A stretch of DNA of 64,000 nt from a virus, in IMG/VR virus record IMGVR_UViG_3300030202_002193, positions 1 to 64,000 of that record. One strand, written 5' to 3'. Under the pieces are notes generated by a model. It was not told the DNA's origin. It saw only the letters and a program-made list of their open reading frames with translations, and ran no database searches. The position numbers and the translations under genes are program-made. Shown piece after piece: positions 26,580-58,407 of this stretch; within the stretch, counting starts at the first letter, position 1, and the number at the start of each line of letters is the position of its first letter.

Positions 26580-26852
26580 CTACTTAAATTCTACCCAAAT
26601 AGTGTCTTGGCTAGTCTGTTGTATTTTATATTCTGGATGATTATTAATTTCATTAATAAAATCTTGAGGAGTAATTCCATGCGGATGTGCAGAAACCACA
26701 TTTGGTCTCCTATCTTTATTCTCGTCAAATCTAACCATGACGGCATTAGGTCGGCTTTGTTGTAGAACATATTTAACCAATTTAATAAAACTTCTAGGGC
26801 GCATCGGCCCCGCTTGCGGTAGTTCGTTTTTAATTATTTTTTTCCAATCCAT
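26580..26852 (-). CDS. Small connector-region protein with N-terminal W-ILK tag
   Basis: 90 residues starting MDWKKIIKNELP, a variant of the repeated N-terminal tag. The body (RSFIKLVKYVLQQS; DFINEINNHPEYKIQQ; DTIWVEFK) is alpha/beta and basic. ATG 26852 is supported by the tag and by GAGTGATT upstream; a GTG three codons upstream is the alternative. It lies among the head-tail connector genes. Unknown function. Confidence 0.6.
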   Translation of the reverse strand: MDWKKIIKNELPQAGPMRPRSFIKLVKYVLQQSRPNAVMVRFDENKDRRPNVVSAHPHGITPQDFINEINNHPEYKIQQTSQDTIWVEFK

Positions 26853-29499: not shown

Positions 29500-30153
29500 T
29501 CACATTAGCCACTTAGCCCAAGCCGCACCTTTCTGAATTGCGCCACCTAATCCTAATCCGGACTTTGGTGGTTCGTAACTCATCTGACCATTAGCATCTA
29601 ACCAATATGGCCGACCATACATATCTTGCCCATTAGGAGGAATCGGATAGCCCGAACCATTGTTCATAGCACCTTGCATTTGTTGGTATTGTTGAGTTTG
29701 TCCCGTTACTCCAGCAAGAGCCATACCTGCTGAAACCTGTTGTTGCCCACCGCCAAATCCTTGAGATTCTAAGAATTGAGACTTAGCCATCTTTCTCTGA
29801 TTAATTACTTCGGCATCAATAGCAGAATTCAATAGATTCATTATATCTAATTCTATGTTAGCGGCAGTAATTCCCTCAAATTCCCTTAAAGAATCAGGAT
29901 GGATTCTAATACTTTTAGTGGTATCGTCTTGAATAAACTGCAATTTAGTCAGCATTCTACTAACTACTCTTTCGGTAACATCTTCCATAAGTGTTTCTAA
30001 ACACTTCAAAAACTTATCTCCGTGGTATTGGAAAAACTCTTCCACATGGTTATCCTGTAAAGAAAGTAAATTATTTACATTCTTGAATTGTTGGTCGCTC
30101 TGTGCTTGTACTGCTCCTAATACTGCGCCGTTACTTGTTCCTAATATCCCCAT
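29500..30153 (-). CDS. Late protein with Gln/Gly-rich tail
   Basis: 217 residues. Helical N-terminal 120 residues (KNVNNLLSLQDNHVEEFFQY; LETLMEDVTERVVSRMLTKL), then a disordered Gln/Gly/Met-rich stretch (FGGGQQQVSAGMALAGVTGQ) and a Pro/Tyr-rich segment (MYGRPYWLDANGQMSYEPPK). Composition suits a flexible structural protein. No family recognised. ATG with GAGAGGAT upstream. Confidence 0.5.
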   Translation of the reverse strand: MGILGTSNGAVLGAVQAQSDQQFKNVNNLLSLQDNHVEEFFQYHGDKFLKCLETLMEDVTERVVSRMLTKLQFIQDDTTKSIRIHPDSLREFEGITAANIELDIMNLLNSAIDAEVINQRKMAKSQFLESQGFGGGQQQVSAGMALAGVTGQTQQYQQMQGAMNNGSGYPIPPNGQDMYGRPYWLDANGQMSYEPPKSGLGLGGAIQKGAAWAKWLM

Positions 30154-30154
30154 A

Positions 30155-30796
30155 TTAATCCTCTCCTTCTGCTTGTACCCCTTGTTTAATCATTAGATGG
30201 TTTAGTCTGTTAGTCAATATATTAATTTCCCCAACGATAGTAATTGCTTCTTCAGTAGGCGTACTATTATCTCCTAATGTGGGAGGTTTAATAAGCCATC
30301 CGGCGGAAACTAAACTAGACACATCTTCTTTACTTAATGTATTTAATGGGCCTCTCCTATTCATTTTTGGAATTTTTGGAATAAATGCTTTGAATTCTAA
30401 ACCATGTTGTTCTGCCAAAATCTGTTGTTGCAACATTTCCATTTGTCTATGTATTCCGGAATGTTTGGGACAGTATGTTCCTCGCATTGGCCTACCTTTG
30501 GTTACATGAGATAAAGGAATTGGTGGCCGCATATAGTCTCCGCTATCCCATGTATGGTGCATTCCGCAAACCACGCAACGGTCCTTTAGATTAAACTTGT
30601 AACTATATTTAATTTTCAAAAAGGATTTCTTTTCCGGTACTAAAACCTTAACCAATTCTTTCAATTGTTTCTTTGGTTTTATGTTGATGCACTTATATTC
30701 TTCTATCGGCCCACTTGCTCTTGCTCTTTGCAACGGTGGCAAAAATGCCGACGGTGCAGTTGTATTCATTTGTCCTATTATATTTTGTTGAAACAT
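30155..30796 (-). CDS. Zinc-binding late protein
   Basis: 213 residues with a CxxC-H...C..H metal site (CVVCGMHHTWDSGDY; GTYCPKHSGIHRQME) in the middle, a basic stretch KIKYSYKFNLKDR before it and a helical C-terminus (EAITIVGEINILTNRLNHLM). Function unknown; probably a small virion or assembly factor that coordinates zinc. Cysteine/histidine spacing does not match a named finger. Confidence 0.5.
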   Translation of the reverse strand: MFQQNIIGQMNTTAPSAFLPPLQRARASGPIEEYKCINIKPKKQLKELVKVLVPEKKSFLKIKYSYKFNLKDRCVVCGMHHTWDSGDYMRPPIPLSHVTKGRPMRGTYCPKHSGIHRQMEMLQQQILAEQHGLEFKAFIPKIPKMNRRGPLNTLSKEDVSSLVSAGWLIKPPTLGDNSTPTEEAITIVGEINILTNRLNHLMIKQGVQAEGED

Positions 30797-30811: not shown

Positions 30812-31216
30812 TTACATATAGTCCGGTATATCCCAAGACCCATAAGAAGTATTCTTATCCCACATCTGTAGCATTTCTCCACTTTGGGCATCATCGGGAA
30901 CAAAATTATATCCTTGATTATCTAAAGCATATGCGATTAAATGATAGAGATTTTCGCCATATCCTCTTCTCATAAATCTAGAGTCTGTTCTAACATCTTT
31001 TGCTTGAAAGGTATCGTCATCTATCTTTTCTGCATAAGCCCTTGTTATTTGCCTACCTTCTTTATCAATAATATTAGCATCCAAAGATTCATCGTGAATA
31101 GAAACTGACATTTTTAATTTTTCATCACTTTTGTTGTCTAGAAACATGGCAGTTGTTTCATCTCCCCTAATAACTATATTAGAAATGCGGTTTTGTTTTA
31201 ATATTTTTTGCCACAT
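30812..31216 (-). CDS. Tagged late protein (MWQKILKQ), acetyltransferase-like end
   Basis: 134 residues from ATG 31216 (the TTG three codons upstream is less likely). N-terminal tag MWQKILKQN, then beta-rich segments (TTAMFLDNKSDEKLKMSVSI). The C-terminal part DSRFMRRGYGENLYHLIAYA followed by LDNQGYNFVPDD resembles the RxxGxG/A acetyl-CoA loop and helix of small GNAT N-acetyltransferases, tentatively. The leader up to the start, GGATTATTGATTACTATGTG, is shared with the gene starting at 31973. First of three tagged genes in tandem. Confidence 0.6.
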   Translation of the reverse strand: MWQKILKQNRISNIVIRGDETTAMFLDNKSDEKLKMSVSIHDESLDANIIDKEGRQITRAYAEKIDDDTFQAKDVRTDSRFMRRGYGENLYHLIAYALDNQGYNFVPDDAQSGEMLQMWDKNTSYGSWDIPDYM

Positions 31217-31234
31217 AGTAATCAATAATCCTCT

Positions 31235-31603
31235 TTAATATCTTTCATCTAGTTCAAACTTACCTTCTAATTTGTTTCGGGTTCCCTCGGCAGTATTGGA
31301 TTGTCTAGTATCGGGAACATAGTTTTTGGAAGGAGATTCTTCTTCTTTTAGTTTAATAACATAATACATGGTTGGGGAAGCAAGACTTTGAAATACTCCA
31401 TCTTCCATTTTAACTACCTTTCCCTCTTTAGCACTACCAACAACAGTATAATTTATTTCTTTGGCCATTTTTTTTATCCAAGCAAAAGCATCATCCCTGT
31501 CTGTAAAGTCCTTTGTTTCAGGTTCATAGTCTCCATCACTGTCTTGTAATTTGAGATATAACACTATTTCGTTATCCTTTTGTTTTAATATTTTTTGCCA
31601 CAT
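31235..31603 (-). CDS. Tagged late protein (MWQKILKQK)
   Basis: 122 residues. Tag MWQKILKQK, nearly identical to the neighbour's, then unrelated sequence: a beta-alpha body (IVLYLKLQDSDGDYEPETKD; DDAFAWIKKMAKEINYTVVG; MYYVIKLKEEE) and a polar tail with several Asn/Arg/Glu. No family recognised. Middle member of the tandem triplet; AGAGGAATTAAA precedes the ATG. Confidence 0.6.
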   Translation of the reverse strand: MWQKILKQKDNEIVLYLKLQDSDGDYEPETKDFTDRDDAFAWIKKMAKEINYTVVGSAKEGKVVKMEDGVFQSLASPTMYYVIKLKEEESPSKNYVPDTRQSNTAEGTRNKLEGKFELDERY

Positions 31604-31613
31604 TTTAATTCCT

Positions 31614-31973
31614 CTAATTTTCTTCTATTATTGAATATCTATCCTCTTGTTCTTTTCGCATATATGTAATTGTCTTTACATGAATATTTCTGCTATATCT
31701 TTTAATTACTAAATATGCGTTTTTCTTTTTCTGCCTAACTAATTTTACAATGATTGTAGTTTTTTTCGGTAGTTGTCCTCGATTAAGTTTTCTTTCTATA
31801 GCGTTTTTGATTCTTTTCATTTTAATATCGGGGAATCTTAATTGTAAATTGTCACTAAAATGTTTGGTTAAAAAAATCTTTACTTTCTCTCCATTATTTA
31901 ATTTTAAAAAATATTGTTCGGCAGTTTCTTTGATACTGTCGTATGGGTTTACCTTTAGAATCATTTTCCACAT
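31614..31973 (-). CDS. Tagged late protein (MWKMILKVN), basic
   Basis: 119 residues from ATG 31973. Tag MWKMILKVN, then a body with FSDNLQLRFPDIKMKRIKNA and many Lys/Arg; the pattern of helix plus strands (TIIVKLVRQKKKNAYLVIKR) is like the small phage MuF- or endonuclease-type basic proteins but no catalytic motif is visible. It shares the leader of the gene at 31216. First transcribed after the GTPase gene. Confidence 0.6.
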   Translation of the reverse strand: MWKMILKVNPYDSIKETAEQYFLKLNNGEKVKIFLTKHFSDNLQLRFPDIKMKRIKNAIERKLNRGQLPKKTTIIVKLVRQKKKNAYLVIKRYSRNIHVKTITYMRKEQEDRYSIIEEN

Positions 31974-31978
31974 AGTAA

Positions 31979-32641
31979 TCAATAATCCTTCAGCATCGTC
32001 ATTACTCCACGATACACCATTTCCGGTTGAGATTTAGCCGACACAATATATTTGAATGTTGGGATGCCCTTATCATTAAGCCGTTGCATCCCATATTTGA
32101 AAGGTCCGAATATAGGATGGTCTTGTATGTCTCCGTCATATTTGTGTTTTTCTCCCCAAATATCGTATTTATTAGCCCATATAGCAACTGCTATAGGGTA
32201 GTCTTGTTCTTTTTTCTTTTTTCTATTGGGCCAAGTATTAGCACAAATGGCATCTACTAAAAATTTCCAAGCGAGTTGGTGGTCTAGATTAGCCCCGCTA
32301 TCTAAATGTCTATGGTCAATCATAAAAATAATGTAATTCACCTTTCTTTTCTTCATATCAGAAATCCATTCTTTCCAATAGAATGATTCTCCCCCGACAT
32401 CTGCTGATTTTAGAGTATGGATTTCTCCTTCAATTTTTATTGTTTTTCTAGTTCCTTTATGAAGGCCGACTGTTCTTTTTTTAATTTCAGGAACTTCTCC
32501 TCTAGTTCTAAGTTGATGATTAAGAGTTGTCTTTCCTACCATAGTTGCCCCATAAATTCCAAATTGTATGGCGTGTATTCTTTTGTAAAATGCTATCGCC
32601 GCTTCTGTTATTACAATAGCGAAACCTGCTAGTACTGACAC
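31979..32641 (-). CDS. Membrane-anchored Ras/Arf-type small GTPase
   Basis: 220 residues (GTG 32641, with GGTGA at suitable spacing; TTG 32647 is the alternative). The first about 20 residues are hydrophobic (VLAGFAIVITEAAIAFY), predicting an N-terminal membrane anchor. All five GTPase motifs follow: G1 GATMVGKT (about residue 31), G2 Thr in KRTVGLHKG, G3 DVGGES, G4 ANKYD and G5 VSAKS. The G3 form with GG and no Gln is Arf/Gtr-like rather than Ras-like. It probably switches on a membrane surface. Genes for two small membrane proteins lie directly upstream. Why a tailed virus carries it in its virion operon is unclear. Confidence 0.85.
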   Translation of the reverse strand: MSVLAGFAIVITEAAIAFYKRIHAIQFGIYGATMVGKTTLNHQLRTRGEVPEIKKRTVGLHKGTRKTIKIEGEIHTLKSADVGGESFYWKEWISDMKKRKVNYIIFMIDHRHLDSGANLDHQLAWKFLVDAICANTWPNRKKKKEQDYPIAVAIWANKYDIWGEKHKYDGDIQDHPIFGPFKYGMQRLNDKGIPTFKYIVSAKSQPEMVYRGVMTMLKDY

Positions 32642-32643
32642 AT

Positions 32644-32865
32644 TCAATCACCAAAGGTATGTGACCATGCAGATTGTAGGCCGTCTAAGCACCATCCTAA
32701 GATATTGATATCAAATACTCCTAATATATTTCCAATTAGAAATGACGCTAACGCCGCACAACTTCCCCAAAAATAAGCCCTAAATCTTAGAAACCAAATA
32801 TCAGCAGAATGCGCTCTTTGCAAATCATATGCCATTGCGCCTTCATCAAAGCCAGTAAAAACCAT
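32644..32865 (-). CDS. Small membrane protein next to the GTPase
   Basis: 73 residues with one clear hydrophobic region (YFWGSCAALASFLIGNILGV) and an amphipathic end. GGTG-type site upstream; its stop overlaps the GTPase start region, so the two are translationally coupled. Function unknown; a membrane partner of the GTPase is plausible. Confidence 0.55.
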   Translation of the reverse strand: MVFTGFDEGAMAYDLQRAHSADIWFLRFRAYFWGSCAALASFLIGNILGVFDINILGWCLDGLQSAWSHTFGD

Positions 32866-32876
32866 GAGGCTTCACC

Positions 32877-33275
32877 TCATCTTTCAATGGCGGCCAAAAA
32901 CTCATTGCCTACGCCTTCGGTTTCTAAAGAGGAAACTAATTGAGTAGGTGGAACATTAAAGGTATTACTATGAGTCTTTAGGGTCTCTCGTATTTTTCCC
33001 TTCTGTTCTTCTTCCTTTCTTTTCTGCGCCCAAAAATGATTCACTCTTCTATCTAGCAAATACATTTCAATTTTTTCATTAAGGGCTAAATCAAATACTG
33101 CTTTTAGAATCATGATGGCCCCTACTGTAATTAGCCCAAATAAAGTTGCGTGGGCTAAAGTCGTGTAAGGGAATTCTGTTCCATAATTAGCATAAAAGAA
33201 AACATTTGCTCCGCTAACCGTCCCTACGAATAGGATAGTCATAACTAGGCGTGTATCGTGTTGTAGTGCTGGCAT
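32877..33275 (-). CDS. Membrane protein with two to three spans
   Basis: 132 residues. Hydrophobic segments at about 8-28 (LVMTILFVGTVSGANVFFYA) and 38-60 (TTLAHATLFGLITVGAIMIL), then a charged coil (RKEEEQKGKIRETLKTHSN). Located upstream of the small membrane protein and GTPase with short gaps, suggesting a three-gene membrane module. No family recognised. Confidence 0.6.
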   Translation of the reverse strand: MPALQHDTRLVMTILFVGTVSGANVFFYANYGTEFPYTTLAHATLFGLITVGAIMILKAVFDLALNEKIEMYLLDRRVNHFWAQKRKEEEQKGKIRETLKTHSNTFNVPPTQLVSSLETEGVGNEFLAAIER

Positions 33276-36976: not shown

Positions 36977-39490
36977 TTAGGGTTTTTCCGTATTTATTGA
37001 CAACTTTGCATATTTATCGTTATTGATATTCCAAATCCCTTTATCGCCTTCTTTGTCTGCTGGCTCTTGTTTATAGCCAGTCCAAGCCAACCACATTTCT
37101 TTATCGTCTACTGGGATTACTCTAAAGTGCATTTTAGTTTCAAATTTATTCCCCTTTATGAAATACTCATGGTAGCCATCTCTTTGTATTCCTAGAGTAA
37201 TATCTCCTTCGTCTATTACTTTGGAATCAGGGGAGATGGTAGTAGCGACTTCAGCAGGGAATTTCCCCGCTTTACCGAATAGGTTGAATATATCATCATC
37301 CGAATTAATATCAATAGTCCAATACATTGTCTCTTCAGATAATTTAATCGCAAATGTTAGGTTATCGTCCTTTCTAGAATATACCTTAAACTGGCCCTCC
37401 CTATATTCTGAAGGAGTTTGATATTCTTCTTCACTTAACATTATCTTATCAGAATCCGCCATGAATTTTTTCTCCTTATGGCTAAAAGTAATTCCATCTC
37501 TAGAATTAAACCATTGAGTTAATTTACCCATATTGCTATCCAATATACTATCATATAACCTTCCGACATCCTTAACTAAAAAATTATGTAGTTCTTTCAC
37601 AGTCATAGGCCCTCTTTCTTTCAATCTTTGAAATACTGAAACAGTTAATTCACTTTGTTTAGTTTTCATTATGTTTTCTGCATCGGCCTTCCAAGAATTT
37701 AAATTCATCATAGCATGTTTAGACATTAGATTATCTTCTTCGAATTCATACAAAGCAAAGCCGTCCATAGATTTTAGAATTGCTTCCCCATGAACATAAT
37801 CTGTAATCAGAATTCCTTTTTCTAAAGCCTTGGCCTTGAACTTCAGACTCTTTTTAGTTTCCTTAGATAGCATCTCTAATGTAACTATCTTATCAGGATA
37901 TTCTACTTCGGGTATTTCTATAACACTAGAACCATAAATGGTATATTTCTCACCATTGGTTTTTACTTCGTCCACCTTAACTCTAAGTATGTCTCCTATA
38001 TCTACATCCACTTTGGTATTATTTGCCTTACCTACATTCATATATTTTATTTTATCTAATTCTTTAATGTGCTTTCCTTCTCCTTCTGCCGGACCAGCAC
38101 CCAATGTGTATGAAAACATATTTGATTTTGTTTTCTTTTTATCTAAGACGATTAAATCTAAATCGACAAATTTCTTCCACTTAACCCATTTAGGATTTTT
38201 CTTAGTGCCTATGTAATATGTAGAAGTAATGTCTTTAATAACCACTCCTTCAGCAGTAGGCATCTCCATAATTTCTTTACTATATTCTTCAATGTCTTTT
38301 ATGCTATCCGCAATTCTAGTATCTTTCTTGGAAGGGAATTGCAAATGGTCATCCGAGTGCATGGAATAATTATTGAATAGAATGTTTATTCTTTCGGATA
38401 GTTCTTCTGAAGCCATATTTCTCTCATCATGTCTCATGATATCAAAAACATGAGCCTTTAATTCAGCATCCTGATATTGGTTCTTGAATACATGGGAAAT
38501 AGTATCTGCACGATGTAGGGCTTCTTCTCCATCGAACAAAATTAATTCTGCATCAAGAATACAATCTCCGAAGTGCTTTCTCTTAATTACCTCGACTTGC
38601 CTTTCACATTTGTCAGTAATGTCCTTTTCATTGTAAGAATATATTTTTACATTGTTATCTATCTTGTGAATCTGTATTCTCATACCATCATATTTTTCTT
38701 GAACAACCCATTCTCCGCTAAAGCCTTGTAATTCTTTGAGGTCATCTATCTCAAATATTCTATACATTGGCTTATTAGGTATTATGAAATCTACTTGGGC
38801 CTTTTCTTCTTGAGATTTTTCTGCTTTTTTAATCTCTACACCTAATAGGCGATTCCATTCTTCCTCCGTGTTTTTAGATAGGAAGAATAGTTTTAGTAGA
38901 GATAGACCATTCTTAAATCTAGATTCTATTTTCTTAGAATCCTTTCCATCTCCATAATGCTCTGTAATATATAACGGGATATCTTTAGGGTCTAAGTCTA
39001 ATCCTTTTAGACCAATAGTAATATCGTCCGGCTCTATATCTTTTATTGAATATAATTCATCAGATAAAACTTCATCATCGTTTCGTAGGGCATAATGAAT
39101 AAACTTAATCATAGTCCCGCTATCTTCCATTAATGCTTCTAGGACATTTCCTTTGAAGCGTTTTGCAAATGGGTCTTGAACTTCGTCTGATTCGAAGCGT
39201 AGCATTTTAATTGCATTGTAGACCTTCTCGGCAGTAGGAGTTTCAGGATTCATTGCATCTTTAGATTGTAAGATGTCTTCTGCTAGGTATTGTTCTAGTT
39301 GCCCGCCCAAGTAATCTAAATTATCGTATTCATCTCTTAGGTCTTCTATTGTTTTTCTCCATCTAGAGCCATAGGTTTTAGAATCACTCTTAGCAGATAG
39401 GTAGGCCACTCTAGTCTTTTCGAAGAGAGAGAGGATTTTATCAGAAACGGATTCAGTTTCCTTCTCAAATAGAAGGCCGGTCAGTGGCAT
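36977..39490 (-). CDS. ATP-dependent DNA ligase with long C-terminal extension
   Basis: 837 residues. Adenylation motif EKYDGMR with the active-site Lys at residue 266, then ILDAELILFDGE, EGVVIKD and KNPKWVKWKK, the nucleotidyltransferase motifs III to V; an OB fold follows. N-terminal 240 residues form the DNA-binding domain of archaeal ligases. Beyond about residue 590 there is an extra 250-residue part: a winged-helix-like region (FQRLKERGPMTVKELHNFL) and a beta region ending HEYFIKGNKFETKMHFRVIP then EMWLAWTGY. The latter recalls the end of the LigD phosphoesterase domain, tentatively. Unusual placement between capsid genes, not with replication genes. Confidence 0.9.
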   Translation of the reverse strand: MPLTGLLFEKETESVSDKILSLFEKTRVAYLSAKSDSKTYGSRWRKTIEDLRDEYDNLDYLGGQLEQYLAEDILQSKDAMNPETPTAEKVYNAIKMLRFESDEVQDPFAKRFKGNVLEALMEDSGTMIKFIHYALRNDDEVLSDELYSIKDIEPDDITIGLKGLDLDPKDIPLYITEHYGDGKDSKKIESRFKNGLSLLKLFFLSKNTEEEWNRLLGVEIKKAEKSQEEKAQVDFIIPNKPMYRIFEIDDLKELQGFSGEWVVQEKYDGMRIQIHKIDNNVKIYSYNEKDITDKCERQVEVIKRKHFGDCILDAELILFDGEEALHRADTISHVFKNQYQDAELKAHVFDIMRHDERNMASEELSERINILFNNYSMHSDDHLQFPSKKDTRIADSIKDIEEYSKEIMEMPTAEGVVIKDITSTYYIGTKKNPKWVKWKKFVDLDLIVLDKKKTKSNMFSYTLGAGPAEGEGKHIKELDKIKYMNVGKANNTKVDVDIGDILRVKVDEVKTNGEKYTIYGSSVIEIPEVEYPDKIVTLEMLSKETKKSLKFKAKALEKGILITDYVHGEAILKSMDGFALYEFEEDNLMSKHAMMNLNSWKADAENIMKTKQSELTVSVFQRLKERGPMTVKELHNFLVKDVGRLYDSILDSNMGKLTQWFNSRDGITFSHKEKKFMADSDKIMLSEEEYQTPSEYREGQFKVYSRKDDNLTFAIKLSEETMYWTIDINSDDDIFNLFGKAGKFPAEVATTISPDSKVIDEGDITLGIQRDGYHEYFIKGNKFETKMHFRVIPVDDKEMWLAWTGYKQEPADKEGDKGIWNINNDKYAKLSINTEKP

Positions 39491-48392: not shown

Positions 48393-48746
48393 CTAACTAC
48401 CCTTCCGCCATTTCTTATTCTTCTTCTCTTTGGTTTTACTTGGACTCCACTTTACTTTATCAGCCCAATATGCCGCAGACATCTTTCCACGCTTGATGTT
48501 CTTAGCATGGCGAGATTTGAAAGCCCTTCTTTGTCCGGCAGTTTGATTTGTCTTAACTCCCTTTTGTCCGAACTTGATGTACTTGGCTTTCTTTCCTTCA
48601 AAGGCCATAACATGATGTGATTTTCCCGAACTGTCATTTAATCTCTGAGGTTTATTTAATCCTTTAAGTCCCTTTTTCTTAGCCCGTTCAAGTGCCTTCG
48701 ACCTAGCACTTTTAGGTTTCTTTTTGAGAATAGTTTGCCAACTCAT
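48393..48746 (-). CDS. Tagged, highly basic protein (MSWQTILKK)
   Basis: 117 residues. Tag MSWQTILKKKPKS, then about a third Lys/Arg (ARSKALERAKKKGLKGLNKP; GQRRAFKSRHAKNIKRGKMS; KVKWSPSKTKEKKNKKWRKG). Likely a DNA-condensing or packaging-associated internal protein. Similar basic small proteins occur in marine tailed-virus genomes. ATG with GAGGGAAG upstream; overlaps the next gene's stop. Confidence 0.65.
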   Translation of the reverse strand: MSWQTILKKKPKSARSKALERAKKKGLKGLNKPQRLNDSSGKSHHVMAFEGKKAKYIKFGQKGVKTNQTAGQRRAFKSRHAKNIKRGKMSAAYWADKVKWSPSKTKEKKNKKWRKGS

Positions 48747-49150
48747 GATTCTTCCCTCTTCATTTGGTTTTTCTTAGACTTCTTATCGTCTTTGATAGGT
48801 CCACCTTTGGCCCAAGTATAGCAAGTTCTATCTTCATGACACTTGAAATCGTGCATCCAACAATATCCTAATCCACCTTTTACATCTACGATAGGCATAC
48901 AATCTTTCATCCTTGGACTAATATCAAAAGCGATGCAATTAGAACACTTAGATTTCTTAGCGGCTTCAACTGATGTGTCCCAATGTTCCGCTACCTTCTC
49001 CCAATAATCAGCAGGTTCATCTATATTCAAAGGACCGTATTTTATATCCTCATCCTCGATAGCGGCATCTCTATTCTTTGTGTTTAGTTTTAGATTCTTA
49101 GTTGCCGGAGGGCAAGTTAATTGCTTCAATAAGATTTGCCAATCATTCAT
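48743..49150 (-). CDS. Tagged Cys-rich protein (MNDWQILLKQ)
   Basis: 135 residues from ATG 49150 (its first bases follow the stop of the EF-hand gene). Tag MNDWQILLKQLTC, then a cysteine cluster: SNCIAFDISPRMKDCMPIVD, GLGYCWMHDFKCHEDRTC, a probable metal-binding domain with several Cys and His. Also a basic tail. Function unknown; similar Cys-rich proteins are seen in marine phages. Confidence 0.6.
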   Translation of the reverse strand: MNDWQILLKQLTCPPATKNLKLNTKNRDAAIEDEDIKYGPLNIDEPADYWEKVAEHWDTSVEAAKKSKCSNCIAFDISPRMKDCMPIVDVKGGLGYCWMHDFKCHEDRTCYTWAKGGPIKDDKKSKKNQMKREES

Positions 49151-49508
49151 CTTCCTCATCCTCTTCTTCCTCTTCAGGAAGCGGTAGTCCATCTAAAAGA
49201 ATATAATCTCCACTCTTATGTTGAACAACATTTTCCATAGAATCTAACAGTCCTTCTAGTTCTTCTCCGGACATCTTAGTTGCTTCTTCTAGTGGTTCTA
49301 GACCCGAAGCCCCTCCTTCTTTTTCCAAAGTAGAAACTATTGTTTCTTCTGCACCTTCAGACTTTTTCGCCCGTAAGTGTTTGAAATCTTCACCAGTAAT
49401 TTCTCCATCACCGTCTGCGTCAATGTTTTTTTGTTTTCCATACAGAATCTTTTCTGTCTCTATTTTTTCTGTTCCGCAATGTGCTTTCAATACTTTTTTC
49501 CAATTCAT
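49143..49508 (-). CDS. Tagged EF-hand protein (MNWKKVLKA)
   Basis: 121 residues. Tag MNWKKVLKAHCG, then a canonical EF-hand calcium loop DADGDGEITGEDF (D, D, D at positions 1, 3, 5, the Gly at 6, Ile at 8 and an acidic 12th residue). The C-terminal half is acidic (GLPLPEEEEEDEEDE). One EF-hand implies dimerisation or Ca-dependent anchoring. Unusual among viral proteins. ATG with GAGGATTAA upstream. Confidence 0.65.
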   Translation of the reverse strand: MNWKKVLKAHCGTEKIETEKILYGKQKNIDADGDGEITGEDFKHLRAKKSEGAEETIVSTLEKEGGASGLEPLEEATKMSGEELEGLLDSMENVVQHKSGDYILLDGLPLPEEEEEDEEDE

Positions 49509-49521
49509 TTAATCCTCTCCT

Positions 49522-49893
49522 TTAACATGCCCCACAAGTAGGTCGGCACTTTCTTTTTTTACCTTTAGAAGCATCTTCTCTTCCACAAGGTTTTGGCCCA
49601 CTTTTATTACCGCAGGTTCCGCAAGCAATCCAACCGCCTTGAGTTTTTTCTCCTTTCTTTTGCTTTCCGCCTCTTCTATTAAACCAAGCATGAAGACCGC
49701 CCTTTCTTTCTTTCTTAGTATGGGGGTCTGCCTTTTTGACTTTACCTTGTCGGCATCTAACAATAAATCCGGATTTGTATGCGGAACTTTTCATCCCGTA
49801 TTTTTCATCGGCTAGTTTAGCACATCTATCCTTTTTCTCGCCTTTGCTATTGTGAGTAGCGGTAGCCTTTACTTTAAGAATATCTTGCCACAT
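49522..49893 (-). CDS. Tagged basic Cys-rich protein (MWQDILKVK)
   Basis: 123 residues from ATG 49893. Tag MWQDILKVKATATHNS, then a basic Lys/Arg/Gly-rich body with KGGLHAWFNRRGGKQKKGEK and cysteine pairs (IACGTCGNKSGPKPCGRED; KCRPTCGAC), a compact zinc-binding module with several CxxC. Similar K/G/C-rich modules are found in marine phage proteins. Probably nucleic-acid binding. Overlapping frame 49509-49763 on the same strand is a shadow. Confidence 0.6.
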   Translation of the reverse strand: MWQDILKVKATATHNSKGEKKDRCAKLADEKYGMKSSAYKSGFIVRCRQGKVKKADPHTKKERKGGLHAWFNRRGGKQKKGEKTQGGWIACGTCGNKSGPKPCGREDASKGKKRKCRPTCGAC

Positions 49894-49898
49894 ATCTC

Positions 49899-52199
49899 TC
49901 ACCTAAATTGTGCCTTCACTTGATATACAATTTCTTCAGATACTCCTAGAGATTTAGCAATATCAGAAAACGAATTAACTTCAGTAACTATTTTATCTAC
50001 TTCAGAATGTGACAAATCAACATGGAACTCCTTATACATCTTAGTAATAACTTCTTCAGAATGTTCGATAGTCAAGGGTCTAAAAGCATAAACGGCTTCC
50101 AAGCCCTTTATTTCTCTAATAATATCATGGGCTTTTAATAAAGATTTGAGAATAACTGGTAGATTTTCTGCCCTTCTCAATAAATCCTTTAATTTGCTAA
50201 CTTCGTTCTTCATCCCTGCTCTTTCAATAAGACCTCTATGTTTCATTAAATAGGCCGGTAAAATAAATAGGGGAAAGGGTTTTCCTGAAGCATAGTCTGT
50301 ACGATATTGTTTTTCTCTTTCACTAATTAACTTCTTATTGAACTTTCTATCTCCAATTTCTTGTCCCATTTCGTCATATAAATATTTAATTATAGCCGCC
50401 ATATGGTTATCATTTTCTTCTTGTAAGTCAAATAAAGCAGTAAGAGCAGTAGCGGCATCTTCTCCCTTTTGAGTTAATTCCATATCTAGCCCACCTTCTC
50501 CGCTAATTACTGCGTTAAGGAACTTGTAGATAGCGGTAATATGGGACTTTTTCACTATGAATCTATTATTTAAGATATTAGAATACGCAGTACCCGATAA
50601 TGTCTGAACGCCTAAATTGGATGCACCTGCTGAAATTCTAAAAGCCCCTACTGATTTAACGAAATCTACTTCTGCTATGGGTAATTTACCACTATAACTA
50701 GGGGAGAGATAATAGGCATCAATAGCCTCTAATAACTCCTTAAATGCTTCTCTAGCCTTTTTCATTTCGCCCTTATGCCCTGCTTGCATAGGGGCTTCCG
50801 AAGGTAGGCCTTCTTCTACTGAAAAGTTTCGTCTAACGCTTTTACTAGGTAGCATCGGAGGGAACTCGAATAATAAATTTCCTACTGTTTCTAAAAATTC
50901 TAATATGTTAGAAGTATTGTTCTCACCATCTACGGTGCTTCCTTTAGGAAGATGCTCTATTATATTGTGAGGTAAATAGAATTCAGAAATATCCGATGTA
51001 ATAGTTTCTTTCATTTCCTCAATATCTTTCTGTATTCTAGGAGACATTAGAACTCCTAAATCCGAATATTGGGCATTCGCATTTTCAATAGACCCTATAA
51101 TGTAGTCATGGATTTCTTCAAATCCTTTCTTAGTAATGGCTATTGTCTTTTTAGATAAATCAGATTTAGGGGAATTGAAGTAATAAGATAGTAAGGGGTC
51201 TACTTCCTTTCCTTCTCCTTCTAAAAATCTTAGGAGTTCATCGTCTTGAGAACTATTTGTCAATGTGGGGTCTATCATAGAAAAATCTTGGCCATCCGTC
51301 TTAGCGGCAGTTCGTAACTCCATTTGCATTTGGGAATTAACATCCCCTGCTATTTCTCCAGTCTCTTTCTTTTCTTCTTCTAATATCTCTTTATGTAAAT
51401 TGTAGGCGGTTTCTAAACTAACTATATACGAATATGCCCTACCTAATGGTACTGAAGTACTTACTGTAACTGGGTCAAATCTATGCACATAACTCAAATC
51501 TTTGTCCTTGAATTCCAAAAGACTAGATAATAAGTCATCCCATTTAGCATCTACCTCTTTGCCTTCAAACATTTGTTCTAACTGTTCCATCATTGGTTTC
51601 ATTAATATATTTTCTAAAGCATTTTTAAGTTTTTTATATTTACCAGCAACATCTCCCCAATATTTGTAGATGACATCTCTATTCTGTACGGAACTTAGTG
51701 GTAGGCCCCCAAGGTAACTATCTATTTTAATAGCCTTAGTAGATTTTTTTCCAGTAATAGCATAAGCCTTGGTTTCATCTATTGCATCTAATAAAACATC
51801 CACATTATGTTGTATTATAATATCAGAAGGGGTGACAGGGGGATTATTTTTTAGGGCCACCTGTATAACCTGTAGATTTTTTTCTAAAGCAGTTATGTCC
51901 TTTTCAGGATTGTTGGTAGTAGAAAATAATCTAATGTTTGTTGGTAGTTTTCCCTTTAAGGCGGTGGTTTTAGTAATAGTTTTGTTACTCTTCGTTTTGA
52001 TTCTTACGCCCTTCAGAGCCTTTTCGAACATTTGAAATGGACTATCAGAGCGACTAATTTTATCTTTTAGTTCTTGGATTTTAGCATCTGCCCCTTCTCC
52101 AAACTCTTCCCTCATGTCAGCAAAGATTTCTGCCTGTTCTGTTTTTCTTTGGCTTTTAGGGAGTCTAGATAATCTATCTGCAATTTCGTCAATGTTCAT
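49899..52199 (-). CDS. 766-residue late protein of unknown function
   Basis: Large, charged, mainly helical protein starting MNIDEIADRLSRLPKSQRKT after GGAGGTCC. The C-terminal end (DIAKSLGVSEEIVYQVKAQF) looks like a helix-turn-helix. Middle regions have alternating helices and short strands (YSDLGVLMSPRIQKDIEEMK; GEGGLDMELTQKGEDAATAL). No enzyme motif visible. It pairs with the downstream-coupled 685-residue gene, which overlaps its start. Candidates: internal virion protein or ejected protein; unproven. Confidence 0.5.
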   Translation of the reverse strand: MNIDEIADRLSRLPKSQRKTEQAEIFADMREEFGEGADAKIQELKDKISRSDSPFQMFEKALKGVRIKTKSNKTITKTTALKGKLPTNIRLFSTTNNPEKDITALEKNLQVIQVALKNNPPVTPSDIIIQHNVDVLLDAIDETKAYAITGKKSTKAIKIDSYLGGLPLSSVQNRDVIYKYWGDVAGKYKKLKNALENILMKPMMEQLEQMFEGKEVDAKWDDLLSSLLEFKDKDLSYVHRFDPVTVSTSVPLGRAYSYIVSLETAYNLHKEILEEEKKETGEIAGDVNSQMQMELRTAAKTDGQDFSMIDPTLTNSSQDDELLRFLEGEGKEVDPLLSYYFNSPKSDLSKKTIAITKKGFEEIHDYIIGSIENANAQYSDLGVLMSPRIQKDIEEMKETITSDISEFYLPHNIIEHLPKGSTVDGENNTSNILEFLETVGNLLFEFPPMLPSKSVRRNFSVEEGLPSEAPMQAGHKGEMKKAREAFKELLEAIDAYYLSPSYSGKLPIAEVDFVKSVGAFRISAGASNLGVQTLSGTAYSNILNNRFIVKKSHITAIYKFLNAVISGEGGLDMELTQKGEDAATALTALFDLQEENDNHMAAIIKYLYDEMGQEIGDRKFNKKLISEREKQYRTDYASGKPFPLFILPAYLMKHRGLIERAGMKNEVSKLKDLLRRAENLPVILKSLLKAHDIIREIKGLEAVYAFRPLTIEHSEEVITKMYKEFHVDLSHSEVDKIVTEVNSFSDIAKSLGVSEEIVYQVKAQFR

Positions 52200-54253
52200 G
52201 CTTGGACCTCCGTAACAATGTTCTTGTCTAGTAGTTTATTTAATAACTTCTTCGGAAGTTGGCCTTTACCGTCACCGACTCCCTTAGAGTTTATTATCTT
52301 GCGAAGATTCTCTTCAAAGAAATATATTAGGGCATTTCTATAGGCAAGTATTCTTCCCTGTATAGTTGATTCTAATTCATCAATTAGTTTTCTTTTATCC
52401 TTCGCCTTATCTATCCTCTCATAGAACCCTAAAACAGAATCACTTCCAGTACTTCCTAGTAAAGAATCTAACTTAGCAAAAAATGGAATTAGTTTTTTAG
52501 GACTTAGTGAAGATAATGTAAGGGAGCCTCCTAGGGGTTCTCTAGCCGTTTTTACTAGAGGATAAGAAAGCATTAGTTGTCTAAACCCTGTCTCTGATAA
52601 TAAAGAAGCAACAGATGAAGAAATCTCAAGACGAGTCAATTCTTTTTCCGGTAAATTACCTTTTAAGTTACTAAGTAAGTCTTTAATTTCAGACGGCACA
52701 AACTCTTCTATTTCTCCATCCTCTTCTCCGACTATTTTGAATCTTCTAAGTGAGCCTATCATGACTTCTTCGAAATCTATAGTAGTTTTATCCTCTAAAA
52801 TATCTCCCACTAATAATTCCTTAACTCCTATATTTTCTATTGCCTCGTCTAATACTCTTTTCATTTTAGGAGATACAGTAGTAGACATCTCTTCCGCATT
52901 CGCTTCACTTATATCTTCTATATCTACTTGTTTCATGAACCATCTCTTGAAAGGTTCCGGTTGTTCAGGAACTTCCTCAGAATCCAAATCAATTTCTATT
53001 CCGAATAAAGGAGTGGAAACTTTTCCAGATTCTTCATTGAATACTTTCATAGCATCTTCTAATAGTAAAGGCCTTAATTTACCAGCATCAATAATCTCCA
53101 ACTTTTTAGTTTGTGTCAATAAAGTATCGAACCAATTCGGTCCATCAATGGCAGTAAGTAATAGGCTCAAATAGGGGTTTGTTCGTAAACTCCCCCCTGC
53201 TTTTGTAGGGAATACTAAGTCTTGTACCAAAGAAGAAGATAGGGTAATTTCTTCTCCTCTTTCTGTAATTTTCATATCTACTCCCTTTGGAATAAATATA
53301 GAAGACTTGACACCTTTGGTTTTACTAACAGTTTCTATAAATTCTGTAAGCATTCGGTTATCAAATTGATTTACTTCATAGAATTTAGCATCAGGTATGG
53401 TTAATTTTCTACTAACTCCGGCAGATTCTATTGTTGGTACATATGATTTAATTTCTACTAAAATAGGGTTCAGAATCTCTTTGAATTGTCTACCATCTGT
53501 TATTGCTGAAAGTCTTCTAAATTCCTCGGCATAGGTTCTGAGAGAAGTAGGTTTCATCCTACCCATACTGCCTTCGCCGGTAAAATCTATATTTCTGTCT
53601 TCATCTAAGAAGAAAGAGTTCCAATTTTTCATCCATTCTCCTACTGTTAGATTAGGATAGTGGATTACCCAAGACCGTTCCTTAATTCCTAGCCAAAGTA
53701 CTTTTCCTTGGATAATTTTAGCAAATTTTTCTAAAAGTTTCTTAGAAGGGTTTCCAGCCTTAAAATATAATATGCTACCCTTGTCTATTTTCTGCAAATC
53801 TCTCTGCAATTGCCGTAAATCTTCATCTCGCATTATTTTAGGGTATTTTTGCGCCAATTTCAAAAATTCGTCGATTTTATCGGTATTTCCGCCCTCTTTT
53901 ATCTCTTGAGCGAGAGTATTCAGTTTTACTCTAGGACTATCCGCACTTTGTCTCTTTTTTGTGCCATATCTTTCTACAAGTAGGTCCATTTTTTGCTTCA
54001 TTGGCGCAATATCCATGTTTTCCCTGAATCTTGGAGTAAATTCTCTAACAAATCCGTCCTTATCTTTAGAATATTTATCCAATGCTTCGATTAATTTGTT
54101 AAAATCTCTTCTTTTTTGGTTTTCTGTAGGAGAATCTCGCATATCATCAAGAATTGGCAGTTGAGTTTCTAAAATATCTAAAGAAAATGCGGGAGAAAGC
54201 ATCCCTTGGACTAAATCTATGGCAGTTTGCCTCTTCAATAACTCGGTCCACAT
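52196..54253 (-). CDS. Tagged 685-residue late protein (MWTELLKRQ)
   Basis: Starts MWTELLKRQTAIDLVQGML, a tag-type opening on an otherwise long protein with no recognised family. Mixed alpha/beta, with charged helices (RDFNKLIEALDKYSKDKDGF; GSLRRFKIVGEEDGEIEEFV). Overlaps the 766-residue gene start by four bases (ATGA). Being tagged makes it an outlier in size among the tagged set, which is otherwise small proteins. Its role is unknown. Confidence 0.55.
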   Translation of the reverse strand: MWTELLKRQTAIDLVQGMLSPAFSLDILETQLPILDDMRDSPTENQKRRDFNKLIEALDKYSKDKDGFVREFTPRFRENMDIAPMKQKMDLLVERYGTKKRQSADSPRVKLNTLAQEIKEGGNTDKIDEFLKLAQKYPKIMRDEDLRQLQRDLQKIDKGSILYFKAGNPSKKLLEKFAKIIQGKVLWLGIKERSWVIHYPNLTVGEWMKNWNSFFLDEDRNIDFTGEGSMGRMKPTSLRTYAEEFRRLSAITDGRQFKEILNPILVEIKSYVPTIESAGVSRKLTIPDAKFYEVNQFDNRMLTEFIETVSKTKGVKSSIFIPKGVDMKITERGEEITLSSSLVQDLVFPTKAGGSLRTNPYLSLLLTAIDGPNWFDTLLTQTKKLEIIDAGKLRPLLLEDAMKVFNEESGKVSTPLFGIEIDLDSEEVPEQPEPFKRWFMKQVDIEDISEANAEEMSTTVSPKMKRVLDEAIENIGVKELLVGDILEDKTTIDFEEVMIGSLRRFKIVGEEDGEIEEFVPSEIKDLLSNLKGNLPEKELTRLEISSSVASLLSETGFRQLMLSYPLVKTAREPLGGSLTLSSLSPKKLIPFFAKLDSLLGSTGSDSVLGFYERIDKAKDKRKLIDELESTIQGRILAYRNALIYFFEENLRKIINSKGVGDGKGQLPKKLLNKLLDKNIVTEVQA

Positions 54254-54259
54254 GAAAAC

Positions 54260-54562
54260 TCACTTAGAATCCCTACTTCCACGCCTTCTAATAATTATTT
54301 TTGCCGACAATTGGCCCATTTTTGCCCTAATTGCCTTTAATTTTTCTGAAATAGTGTTAATTTTTAGAGAAATCTGCTCATCCTCTTCAGAAGTCTTTGC
54401 ATTTTTTCTCGCTATACTTAGTTTGGAAAGTTCGCCCTCTATTTCTCGCATTTTCTTTACCATACTATCCATTTTTTTCTGCAATTCCGAGTCATAATCT
54501 GTAACTTGAAAGCGTTTCCTCTGCTCTCTACGGATTCTTTTCAGTATATCTTCCCAACTCAT
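54260..54562 (-). CDS. Tagged coiled-coil protein (MSWEDILKR)
   Basis: 100 residues: tag MSWEDILKRIRREQ, then a long coil (DSMVKKMREIEGELSKLSIA; EEDEQISLKINTISEKLKA) and a basic end with RRRGSRDSK. The leader GGAGGAATTACAATGAGTTG is shared by four genes here (starts 54562, 54819, 55154, 55395). Unknown function. Confidence 0.6.
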   Translation of the reverse strand: MSWEDILKRIRREQRKRFQVTDYDSELQKKMDSMVKKMREIEGELSKLSIARKNAKTSEEDEQISLKINTISEKLKAIRAKMGQLSAKIIIRRRGSRDSK

Positions 54563-54573
54563 TGTAATTCCTC

Positions 54574-54819
54574 CTAGATATTATATTCTAACTCTCTTGT
54601 AGAAATATGTATTTCTTCTAATCTCTTTAGCCTATCTTGTAAATCAGCAAATTCTTCTTGCGCCCTTTCCATATCTTTTTCTTCAAGAATAAGAGTTTCG
54701 ATATACTTTAGATGTTCATATAAGTCTGCAAATCTATCAACGCCTAGTTCCATAATCACTTTGATGTAATACCTAACATCGTCATAGATGTCTTTCTTTA
54801 GAAGATTTTTCCAACTCAT
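54574..54819 (-). CDS. Tagged helical protein (MSWKNLLKKD)
   Basis: 81 residues: tag MSWKNLLKKDIYDDV, then helices (YYIKVIMELGVDRFADLYEH; MERAQEEFADLQDRLKRLEE). Same leader as neighbours. No family recognised. Confidence 0.6.
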   Translation of the reverse strand: MSWKNLLKKDIYDDVRYYIKVIMELGVDRFADLYEHLKYIETLILEEKDMERAQEEFADLQDRLKRLEEIHISTRELEYNI

Positions 54820-54830
54820 TGTAATTCCTC

Positions 54831-55154
54831 CTAGGCATAATCCTCTAATATGGTATCAACATCTTCAGAATAATTTTCTGCAACTATATCCCAATCTACA
54901 TCATTAATAGAATCTGTTGAACCATCATAATCTTCCCTTTCTAATTCTTCCATAAAACCTTCCATGTGCATCATAACATTAGGAAGCCAATTTGCCAACT
55001 TATCCATGAGTTCTTCTTTTTCATATCCCGACATAACTAGAGATTCAATATATGCTAATACCTTTCTATAAGTCTCTTCTTCATTCATTATCCAAAGTTC
55101 AGCAGAACGAGTAGCAGTATCTATTTTTTTTCTAATGATATTTTTCCAACTCAT
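54831..55154 (-). CDS. Tagged acidic protein (MSWKNIIRK)
   Basis: 107 residues from ATG 55154, which has the shared leader; an upstream in-frame ATG would overlap the next gene. Tag MSWKNIIRKKIDTATRS, then acidic helices (RKVLAYIESLVMSGYEKEEL; DNDWD-like end NDVDWDIVAENYSEDVDTI). No family recognised. Confidence 0.6.
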   Translation of the reverse strand: MSWKNIIRKKIDTATRSAELWIMNEEETYRKVLAYIESLVMSGYEKEELMDKLANWLPNVMMHMEGFMEELEREDYDGSTDSINDVDWDIVAENYSEDVDTILEDYA

Positions 55155-55170
55155 TGTAATTCCTCCTGCA

Positions 55171-55395
55171 TCAAATTTCAACTACACTATCGTAAGCACT
55201 TTCAAATCCCTCATCATCTAAGGCAAGGCAATTCCTACAAGAATAGCCCTCAGAGGGTTCATTGGGTCTAAAATTATCATCACTGAATCTTCTAAAATCA
55301 GATACATAATACTCTGCCCTGCCTGTGCAATTAGGAGAACGCCTTATGTCACACCTTAACTTTTTATCTTCTTTCAAAATTTTCTTCCAACTCAT
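55171..55395 (-). CDS. Tagged zinc-like protein (MSWKKILKED)
   Basis: 74 residues: tag MSWKKILKEDKKLRCDIRRS, with cysteines arranged CDIRRSPNC and a later SCRNCLA, a probable zinc site of the HNH-like or treble-clef type without catalytic residues. Shared leader. Function unknown. Confidence 0.6.
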   Translation of the reverse strand: MSWKKILKEDKKLRCDIRRSPNCTGRAEYYVSDFRRFSDDNFRPNEPSEGYSCRNCLALDDEGFESAYDSVVEI

Positions 55396-56055: not shown

Positions 56056-57381
56056 TCACGCCTGTTCAATTAAATGAATTGTATATTTAGCCACCTGTTC
56101 TAGTTGAGGTTCAGTTAAAAGGTTAATATCTTCTGTTCTATTAGGATGAACCCCACCTCTTGTTGTAGGCCTATCATATTTCATAACAAGTTTTTCTATT
56201 TCTCTACTTATACTTCCTATTTTAGCCCCTCGGCTAAATTGGTGTAGTCTAGATAATTTTGCAGACAACTCTATACTTTTACCCCTATTAACCAAATTTT
56301 GCATATAGGGTCGTAGTTGTTTTGCAATTGCTATAGGTAAATCATATTCTACTAACATTGCCAGCCATTGAGGATAATTCTCTGTACGCTTTACAATATC
56401 TAGCCAAGATTTAGCAACCGGTACTCCTTCCTTTCTAGGTCTTTTATCTACGACCTTACCATGAATGTAGAATCCACCGACCTTCTTCTTAGTGGAAGCG
56501 AGATACGCCCTTTCTACAATGGCAGGTGAAACCTTAACAGTAAATTCCTCTACATCTCCAGTCACTTCTTCTTCAGAAAATCCACTCAATCTTCTAACTA
56601 TTGCTTCTTCTGCTTCACCAGTCACGCCAAACTTTTGACTTGCCAATTTTCCAGCAATTGCCTTAGCATTAATTACTCCCTCTTTAACTAAAGCCGGAGT
56701 TAATTGGCTTTCTAAGAATTGCTTAACCTGAGACAACTTATACAATTCTTTAGGATTAGAAACTCTAGTAATTTCAAATGTAATATCTGCCTCTTCTAAC
56801 TCTTTAAGTGCATCTTCTAAAATATATTTCAATCCTTTTGGACTCTCTTTAGAATATACTACTTGATGAGGAGGAGGAGTAGGGGGGTTGTTTACATCAT
56901 AACTATACCAAGACTTAGGAACTGGGGTGTCGCCCTTAAACTTCTTACTATATTTTACAAACTCCGCAGTTTTCCAATGCCCGTAAACTTTTCTCTTACC
57001 TATGTTTTTTCCTGATTTGTCATATATGTTGATGTGATATGGTATCATGGCAGGGTCAGCCTTAGTACCTTTAGCCGCATCAATAAATTTCAAATATGCT
57101 TTAAGATAATCTATTTCTTTTGTTCCTATGAAATCATCATAGTCCATAATTTCCATAAGTCTTGGCAAATGGTCTCGATGGCCTCTAGAAGCACCTTCGA
57201 TTGTTTCCATTCCAGTTCGTCTTGTGACAGTGTTGGAGGACTTAATTCCGTGTCGTAGAATAAAATCTACTCCTTCTAATTCCTTCCATTCCTGAAACTC
57301 TTTGAAAAAATTAGTAGACTTCAATTCCTGTTGAGCAGTATTGCCATTCTTAGTCTTAGTCTTTTTCTTCATCTTTGGCAT
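56056..57381 (-). CDS. 441-residue late protein with internal SWLDIVKR
   Basis: Lys-rich N-terminus (MPKMKKKTKTKNGNTAQQEL), then mixed alpha/beta. At about residue 325 the run VPVAKSWLDIVKRTENYPQW matches the core of the late tag inside a large protein. Other segments: YDDFIGTKEIDYLKAYLKFI; HQFSRGAKIGSISREIEKLV. No known family. Overlaps the next tagged gene's stop and lies upstream of the terminase-like genes. Confidence 0.5.
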   Translation of the reverse strand: MPKMKKKTKTKNGNTAQQELKSTNFFKEFQEWKELEGVDFILRHGIKSSNTVTRRTGMETIEGASRGHRDHLPRLMEIMDYDDFIGTKEIDYLKAYLKFIDAAKGTKADPAMIPYHINIYDKSGKNIGKRKVYGHWKTAEFVKYSKKFKGDTPVPKSWYSYDVNNPPTPPPHQVVYSKESPKGLKYILEDALKELEEADITFEITRVSNPKELYKLSQVKQFLESQLTPALVKEGVINAKAIAGKLASQKFGVTGEAEEAIVRRLSGFSEEEVTGDVEEFTVKVSPAIVERAYLASTKKKVGGFYIHGKVVDKRPRKEGVPVAKSWLDIVKRTENYPQWLAMLVEYDLPIAIAKQLRPYMQNLVNRGKSIELSAKLSRLHQFSRGAKIGSISREIEKLVMKYDRPTTRGGVHPNRTEDINLLTEPQLEQVAKYTIHLIEQA

Positions 57382-57721
57382 TTTTATTACCTCCTATTCT
57401 GCCTTCACTAAAAAGAGGTTTATGAGCCGCACTACTTGTAGTTACCGTTCCAGCAACCTTTTCCATTTCTCCATTCAAAGAATCTAAAATTGTAGGGAGT
57501 ACTGATTGTAGGTCGTAGACATTCGTATTAAAATCGCCATAATTTACCCTATATGCCGAACCGCCCCTTCTCTTAACTGTGATTTTTCCCCTATCAGAAT
57601 CCAAAGTAAAATTGTCCCCTGCCCTACTGCTACCACCTGAAATCTCCCCACCGATTATATTTTGAATGTTTTGTAGAAACATCCTAGGGGTCATCATCTT
57701 TAATACATTTTTCCAAGTCAT
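57356..57721 (-). CDS. Tagged Gly/Ser-rich protein (MTWKNVLKM)
   Basis: 121 residues: tag MTWKNVLKMMTPRMFLQNIQ, then a Gly/Ser/Arg-rich region (GGEISGGSSRAGDNFTLDSD) and a strand-rich middle (KITVKRRGGSAYRVNYGDFN), charged end. It may be a small internal or decoration protein. No family recognised. Confidence 0.55.
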   Translation of the reverse strand: MTWKNVLKMMTPRMFLQNIQNIIGGEISGGSSRAGDNFTLDSDRGKITVKRRGGSAYRVNYGDFNTNVYDLQSVLPTILDSLNGEMEKVAGTVTTSSAAHKPLFSEGRIGGNKNAKDEEKD

Positions 57722-57978
57722 TTCTTTCCCCTCTCTAATCGGTCTTGTAATTGAATAAGTTCCGGCATAATTTCCATATATTGTTTCAACATGTCTTCAT
57801 CGTTGCCTAAATATTTTTCAAGAAAAATCTGTTTCATAACTGGGTCTCTTTTGATTTGATAATACACGGCTCTACTGTTCCTACCAGAATTTTTTATCAT
57901 ATTGTCTAATTGAACAATTTTGGTTCTAATTTTCTTAGTGGAATATTTTTTTTCTTTGAGGATAGTTTCCCACCTCAT
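57718..57978 (-). CDS. Tagged basic helical protein (MRWETILKE)
   Basis: 86 residues: tag MRWETILKEKKYSTKKIRTK, then a helical body (IVQLDNMIKNSGRNSRAVYY; LKQYMEIMPELIQLQDRLER). Basic start, acidic middle. ATGA overlap with its neighbours; leader GGAGGAATAAAG. No family recognised. Confidence 0.6.
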   Translation of the reverse strand: MRWETILKEKKYSTKKIRTKIVQLDNMIKNSGRNSRAVYYQIKRDPVMKQIFLEKYLGNDEDMLKQYMEIMPELIQLQDRLERGKK

Positions 57979-58142
57979 TCTTTATTCCTCCTGAATACTT
58001 TAGCCCATGCTTGAGCCTTAGTTAAAGTGGTAGTCTTTTTCTTTTGGCCTGTAACTAAACAAGTACCATAATCATTCTCAACTTTGTCAAGTTTAGCAGA
58101 TTCATTATCTAACCAGCCCTCTAAATAATTGCATCGTGTCAT
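57975..58142 (-). CDS. Untagged 55-residue small protein
   Basis: MTRCNYLEGWLDNESAKLDK then TLTKAQAWAKVFRRNKE; small, charged, two cysteines. ATG 58142 and stop overlap the neighbouring frames by ATGA junctions. It is the odd one out in a block of tagged genes. Unknown function. Confidence 0.5.
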   Translation of the reverse strand: MTRCNYLEGWLDNESAKLDKVENDYGTCLVTGQKKKTTTLTKAQAWAKVFRRNKE

Positions 58143-58144
58143 AT

Positions 58145-58402: not shown

Positions 58403-58407
58403 ATTAA

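Follow-up and report, generated by a model that had tools for sequence, protein, structure and literature searches.

Membrane-acting small GTPases are a hallmark of eukaryotic cells, and the motif D-x-G-G-Q-x6-W is common to Arf, Sar1 and Gα and is not found in Ras or Rab. Small GTPases have only recently been linked to membrane work in archaea, through ArvA of Haloferax volcanii, an archaeal small GTPase with an N-terminal amphipathic helix that drives vesicle formation and that was nearest to Arf in its authors' HMM search (PMC10927574). Loss of ArvA cuts vesicle formation and its overexpression raises it (PMC10927574); such GTPases can thus deform archaeal membranes. Among viruses, Mimivirus encodes a homologue of the Rab GTPases for which a membrane role has been proposed (PMC4569851). 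The magroviruses, tailed viruses of marine Poseidoniales archaea, are related to Druskaviridae and are thought to be lytic according to published descriptions. Here we describe a whole clade of very common tailed viruses, presumed to infect abundant marine archaea, that keeps a small GTPase as the best-conserved protein of its virion operon. The likely task of this GTPase is the control of a membrane step late in infection, for instance the release of virus.

The virion operon and the GTPase gene

The window, a stretch of 64,000 nucleotides, belongs to a virus record of 84.5 kb. Its minus strand encodes, in order, terminase, portal, ATP-dependent DNA ligase, prohead protease, an SU10-like major capsid protein and the GTPase block, followed by tail tube, tape measure and a very large tail protein, which bears out the placement of the GTPase in a virion operon by the first-pass annotation. 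A DNA polymerase, recognised as such by its PHROG match, is encoded on the opposite strand. Among named viruses, HVTV-1, HCTV-1 and HCTV-5 have the nearest capsid proteins. The tailed-virus module, the polymerase (PolB in the published features) together with an ATP-dependent DNA ligase, the two divergent gene clusters and the relation to Druskaviridae are all features of Magrovirales, and the assignment of the source as a magrovirus-like tailed virus agrees with the published descriptions. All viruses compared are metagenomic, and the host assignment is taken from the literature. No mention of a GTPase was found in a survey of magrovirus literature other than Philosof 2017, Zhou 2023 and Prabhu 2025.

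Two features of the late strand are recorded here in their own right. In the clade that carries the GTPase (GTPase+) and in its sister clade alike, the head operon includes the ATP-dependent DNA ligase gene (36977-39490 in the window), which directly precedes the prohead protease. In addition, about 18 otherwise unrelated late-strand proteins share the N-terminal motif M(x)W(K/Q/E)x(I/V/L)(L/I)K, for example MSWKDIVK or MWQKILK, and are encoded at 26580-26852, 30812-31982, 48393-49902, 52196-54253, 54260-55395 and 57356-58827, all on the minus strand. The motif recurs in 14 and 18 proteins of two other genomes, the sister clade included, and is possibly a targeting or packaging tag.

The GTPase open reading frame occupies 31979-32647 on the minus strand and encodes 222 amino acids if read from the listed TTG at 32647. 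Because most relatives start with MSxxxGF, the GTG at 32641 is the likelier start, yielding a product of 220 amino acids (31979..32641). All five G motifs reported by the first-pass annotation are present and, across 197 relatives, are retained: G1, the P-loop GATMVGKT (32528..32551, minus strand), follows the consensus G(A/S)(T/S)xxGKT in 197/197 sequences; the G2 region RTVG (32465..32476, minus strand) contains the invariant T57; G3, DVGGE together with W92 (32366..32401, minus strand), conforms without exception to D(V/I/L/M)GG(E/Q); G4, NKYD (32162..32173, minus strand), which confers guanine specificity, is NK(Y/F/H/V)D in every relative; and G5, SAK (32033..32041, minus strand), is kept in 196 of the 197. 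The G3 residue is Glu in 175 relatives and the canonical Gln in the remaining 22, and the Trp of the Arf/Gα-type arrangement D-x-G-G-E/Q-x6-W is found in all 197. The identity of the protein as a GTPase is established from its sequence; presumably, it hydrolyses GTP.

The N-terminus is of membrane type, as had also been noted at first reading. Its first ~18 residues are hydrophobic in a simple hydropathy scan, and residues 2-20 (32582..32638, minus strand) form a predicted hydrophobic helix and membrane anchor with invariant S2, G6, F7 and E13. Position 2 is thus an invariant Ser in place of Gly2, and the protein therefore carries no myristoylation signal. The family alignment further reveals a Lys-rich basic loop after helix 3 and before the fifth strand. 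The helix and the basic loop fit an attachment to the membrane, where the GTPase would be located.

Assignment to the Ras superfamily

Profile searches place the protein in the superfamily without assigning it to a known family. In Pfam, the window protein matched Roc, MMR_HSR1, Ras and SRPRB at E values of 0.016-0.06, all below the cut-off. NCBIfam TIGR00231 (small_GTP) was matched by 79/79 diverse members, the best at 1.8e-7. At E<=1, the Pfam matches among these 79 members comprised SRPRB (76), MMR_HSR1 (75), Roc (63), Ras (56), Gα (25) and Arf (19), with best E values of 7.7e-5 for SRPRB and 6.5e-5 for Arf. No cellular family was matched above its cut-off. A single-sequence search of the PDB returned nothing, and profile searches reached only Ras, at E of about 0.05-0.1. 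AlphaFold2, run on the 79-row alignment, produced a model of moderate confidence (pLDDT 75) that is weakest at the P-loop. Foldseek searches with this model gave Gα, Rab and Arl GTPases as the best matches (4.5e-9 downwards, TM about 0.5-0.7), supporting a small-GTPase fold in agreement with the G motifs. Structures of Ras were likewise among the fold matches.

The resemblance to Arf is a matter of motif and not of profile. The earlier description as "Arf-like" stands with respect to the DxGGE/Q element and the Trp seven residues after it; it does not extend to the Arf profile PF00025, which matched neither the window protein nor anything in the virus record, and only weakly the 19 members counted above. 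The companion label "Gtr-like" finds no support, as no Gtr/Rag model, Gtr1/RagA included, is among the 23 families matched by any of the 79 members. Since the profile is not that of Arf, Ser2 replaces Gly2 and Gtr/Rag goes unmatched, we judge that the GTPase represents a new family within the Ras superfamily, one that has Arf/Gα-like features. A known phage ATPase, raised at the outset as an alternative identity, is rejected: the window protein matched no PHROG, the best match over the 79 members was a Sak4-like P-loop ATPase at 6e-4, which is not convincing, and the guanine-specificity elements NKxD and SAK are invariant or nearly so. Among named phages, no relative was detected even at E=10.

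A scan of 84,980 species genomes by short exact peptide patterns, which would miss distant relatives because such patterns are required, gave matches to the GTPase in only two contigs of one Maricaulis bin. The viral GTPase is encoded on both of these contigs (L082, NZMJ01000024.1; L083, NZMJ01000101.1), which bear the MAG label Maricaulis sp. and are probably misbinned virus contigs. A recent capture from the host finds no support, in so far as close cellular relatives, the only ones that the scan can detect, are lacking in these genomes. The same result bears on the idea that the GTPase mimics ArvA or another archaeal small GTPase and thereby redirects host membrane traffic or vesicles. The precedent of ArvA itself (PMC10927574) and the combination of an N-terminal helix with an Arf-type G3 in the viral protein speak for such mimicry, but no close cellular relative is seen, the sole matches look like misbinned virus, and the viral neighbours differ from arvB and arvC as described. 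We regard this mode of action as improbable.

Linkage of the block and its absence from a sister clade

The interval 31979-33275 comprises three genes. Immediately upstream of the GTPase, on the same minus strand, lie the two small membrane proteins that the first-pass annotation had pointed out: tm73 (32644..32865; 73 amino acids, one hydrophobic segment, an invariant RAHSAD), whose stop codon overlaps the TTG at 32647, and tm132 (32877..33275; 132 amino acids, two hydrophobic segments and a charged C-terminal tail). Both are predicted membrane proteins, the transmembrane calls being those of a simple hydropathy scan, and neither matched a holin family in Pfam, PHROGs or further profile searches. 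According to the same scan, the late strand of GTPase+ genomes encodes hardly any credible small membrane proteins other than tm132, tm73 and the GTPase. Past the GTPase there follows a variable interval (30812..31982, minus strand) that is short or different in most relatives and here contains three small ORFs, each beginning MW(K/Q)xILK.

The block is completed by two conserved, soluble proteins encoded on the minus strand, p213 (30155..30796) and p217 (29500..30153). The possible zinc ligands of p213 (CxxC ... CxKH) lie in an invariant CxxCG ... GTYCxKH, which suggests that this constant companion of the GTPase is a zinc-binding protein. The C-terminal third of p217 includes the strongly conserved stretch GYPIPPxGxDxYGRPYWxDxxGQxxYEPP, which appears WW-domain-like by eye and has no profile match, and the ends of the protein are hydrophobic and rich in glycine. 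One contig, IMGVR_UViG_3300021958_000021 (184.7 kb), carries two different p217 loci (L413 and L458) about 92 kb apart and represents either two virus genomes that assembly has fused or an artefact resembling a concatemer.

Loci collected via the GTPase and having enough DNA display the order capsid protein, p113, p127, p107, tm132, tm73, GTPase, p213, p217 and p376; the p113 profile misses some of these loci, and the other absences lie at contig ends. The GTPase start is usually 0-12 nt past the tm73 stop. Searches seeded with other genes, which avoid the bias of GTPase-first sampling, recovered the same linkage: the tested block members were present in 52/52 and 31/31 capsid-seeded loci with enough downstream DNA, and the tested partners in 69/69 loci seeded with p217. 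In each of five near-complete GTPase+ records, which like the others derive from uncultured viruses and are of unproven completeness, the GTPase, tm132 and p217 occur exactly once. When 12 operon proteins were compared over 40 loci, the GTPase ranked first in conservation, with a mean identity of 0.699 as against 0.677 for the capsid protein, 0.618 for the protease, 0.612 for p217, 0.577 for p213, 0.544 for tm132 and 0.524 for tm73. Its distances are correlated with those of the core genes for capsid (Spearman 0.76) and ligase (0.81).

The gene thus occurs throughout the clade as a single copy and evolves more slowly than the capsid protein, which disfavours the proposal of the first-pass annotation that the protein counters host GTPases. 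More generally, an accessory gene (moron) or counter-defence gene outside virion biology would suit a small single gene that sits within a structural operon and has no named viral homologues; universality, a single copy in a fixed place, the highest conservation in the operon and distances that follow the core genes make this very improbable, and universality and slow change disfavour a counter-defence moron in particular.

The same operon (ligase, protease, capsid, p113 and p376) is retained in a sister clade whose capsid proteins share 43-48% identity with their GTPase+ counterparts. In 12/12 sister loci that span the region, tm132, tm73, the GTPase, p213 and p217 are all absent between the head genes and p376. 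In three sister records (88, 92 and 91 kb), searches for the GTPase, for tm132, for p217 and for any small-GTPase model gave no match, whereas all five positive controls matched. Since all of it is missing, the block is gained or lost in one piece. The gene that separates p217 from p376 resembles the 789-1085 aa gene preceding p376 in the sister clade only weakly, at the N-terminus.

The sister clade encodes a different pair of small membrane proteins on its late strand, directly after the tail genes, a region that is the usual place of lysis genes. In one sister genome (G006; L466 16718-17373, with equivalents in G005 and G007), the pair comprises a 72-aa protein with one predicted transmembrane segment and a 146-aa protein with two, encoded with overlapping ends. 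It is found in 3/3 near-complete sister records, at 42-99% and 53-100% identity to the query, and is absent from the five GTPase+ records and from the window's own record. Although it matches no known holin family, this pair is a candidate archaeal-virus lysis cassette. Two sister records also carry a tail-anchored protein of about 60 aa; the exchange between trio and pair is thus not strictly one for one.

A proposed role in egress and comparison with known systems

Every lytic tailed virus requires a late membrane step, and to our knowledge the exit of tailed viruses from archaeal cells is largely undescribed. We propose that the GTPase is the switch of a late membrane module formed with tm132 and tm73, most likely serving egress, with a probability of roughly 0.4. 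Egress is favoured because the late trio looks essential and directed to the membrane, and because the sister clade has in its stead a pair of similar size and topology where lysis genes typically lie. At a late stage of infection, the GTPase would sit on the inner face of the host membrane via its N-terminal helix, and its GTP or GDP state would control the assembly or opening of a tm132/tm73 membrane complex. Remodelling or permeabilisation of the host membrane would thereby be timed correctly and let the virions out; p213 and p217 would probably serve the module as partners or regulators. The more specific proposition, that the GTPase+ clade exits by a GTP-switched machine in which an Arf/Gα-like GTPase gates a two-protein membrane complex that replaces the small-TM pair of the sister clade, is put forward tentatively, as less likely than not.

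The position of the trio, between the head and connector genes while the sister pair lies at the end of the late operon, counts against egress, as does the finding that trio and sister pair alike match no known holin family; the strong conservation of the GTPase is also compatible with a role in the virion or in assembly. The GTPase and its membrane partners might thus hold procapsids or the connector assembly at the host membrane, or time head completion. The block is located exactly between the head genes (MCP, p113, p127, p107) and p376, the next gene in both clades; the soluble, highly conserved p213 and p217 travel with it; and conservation of the GTPase exceeds that of the MCP. Yet the sister clade has apparently the same head-tail operon without the block, which is therefore not needed for this virion plan, and such docking is considered unlikely. 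Alternatively, tm132, tm73, p213, p217 and perhaps the GTPase might be packaged, or be ejected, and exert their effect on the next host's membrane at entry, as the structural-operon position, the fixed linkage and the ends of p217, resembling what internal or ejected proteins may have, would allow. However, a nucleotide switch with complete NKxD and SAK elements needs cytoplasmic GTP, and the trio lacks the N-terminal motif of many other late proteins; a function in the virion or at entry receives a low probability. Egress is accordingly ranked above docking, above a virion or entry function and above ArvA-like mimicry. If egress is correct, a GTP-switched exit would be a new kind of viral exit among prokaryotic viruses; we know of no prokaryotic virus in which one has been described. 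The block, set against the sister clade that lacks it, makes the exit of archaeal viruses testable.

Compared with the holin pairs of tailed phages, which combine a two-TM and a one-TM protein, tm132 and tm73 are alike in size and predicted topology, and the sister clade has a comparable pair; they differ in matching no holin family and in having a GTPase as third member, an arrangement for which we know of no counterpart. The β subunit of the SRP receptor (SRPRB, PF09439) is likewise an Arf-type GTPase with an N-terminal membrane anchor, and is weakly matched in Pfam by 76 of the 79 members, but the window protein scores 13.1 against a cut-off of 25 bits, the viral anchor is much shorter and no partner resembling SRP-receptor α is seen. 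Like the protein described here, the Mimivirus Rab homologue is a small GTPase encoded by a virus and proposed to act on membranes, although it belongs to the Rab family and to a giant virus of a eukaryote, outside any tailed-virus virion operon. ArvA, compared here by description only, is a membrane-acting archaeal small GTPase with an N-terminal helix, a feature that the viral family shares and combines with the Arf-type G3. It is cellular, however, and its operon partners are arvB and arvC (a Zn-ribbon protein) in place of two small TM proteins; the possible zinc ligands of p213 have no established relation to arvC. With Arf, Sar1 and Gα (PF00025, PF00503), the viral GTPase has in common the five G motifs, a DxGGQ-type G3, a membrane-seeking N-terminal helix directly before the first strand and the Trp at Q+7, a position known from Arf1, Sar1 and Gα, whereas its mostly Glu-containing G3, its Lys-rich loop after helix 3 and its occurrence in a virus of prokaryotes set it apart from them.
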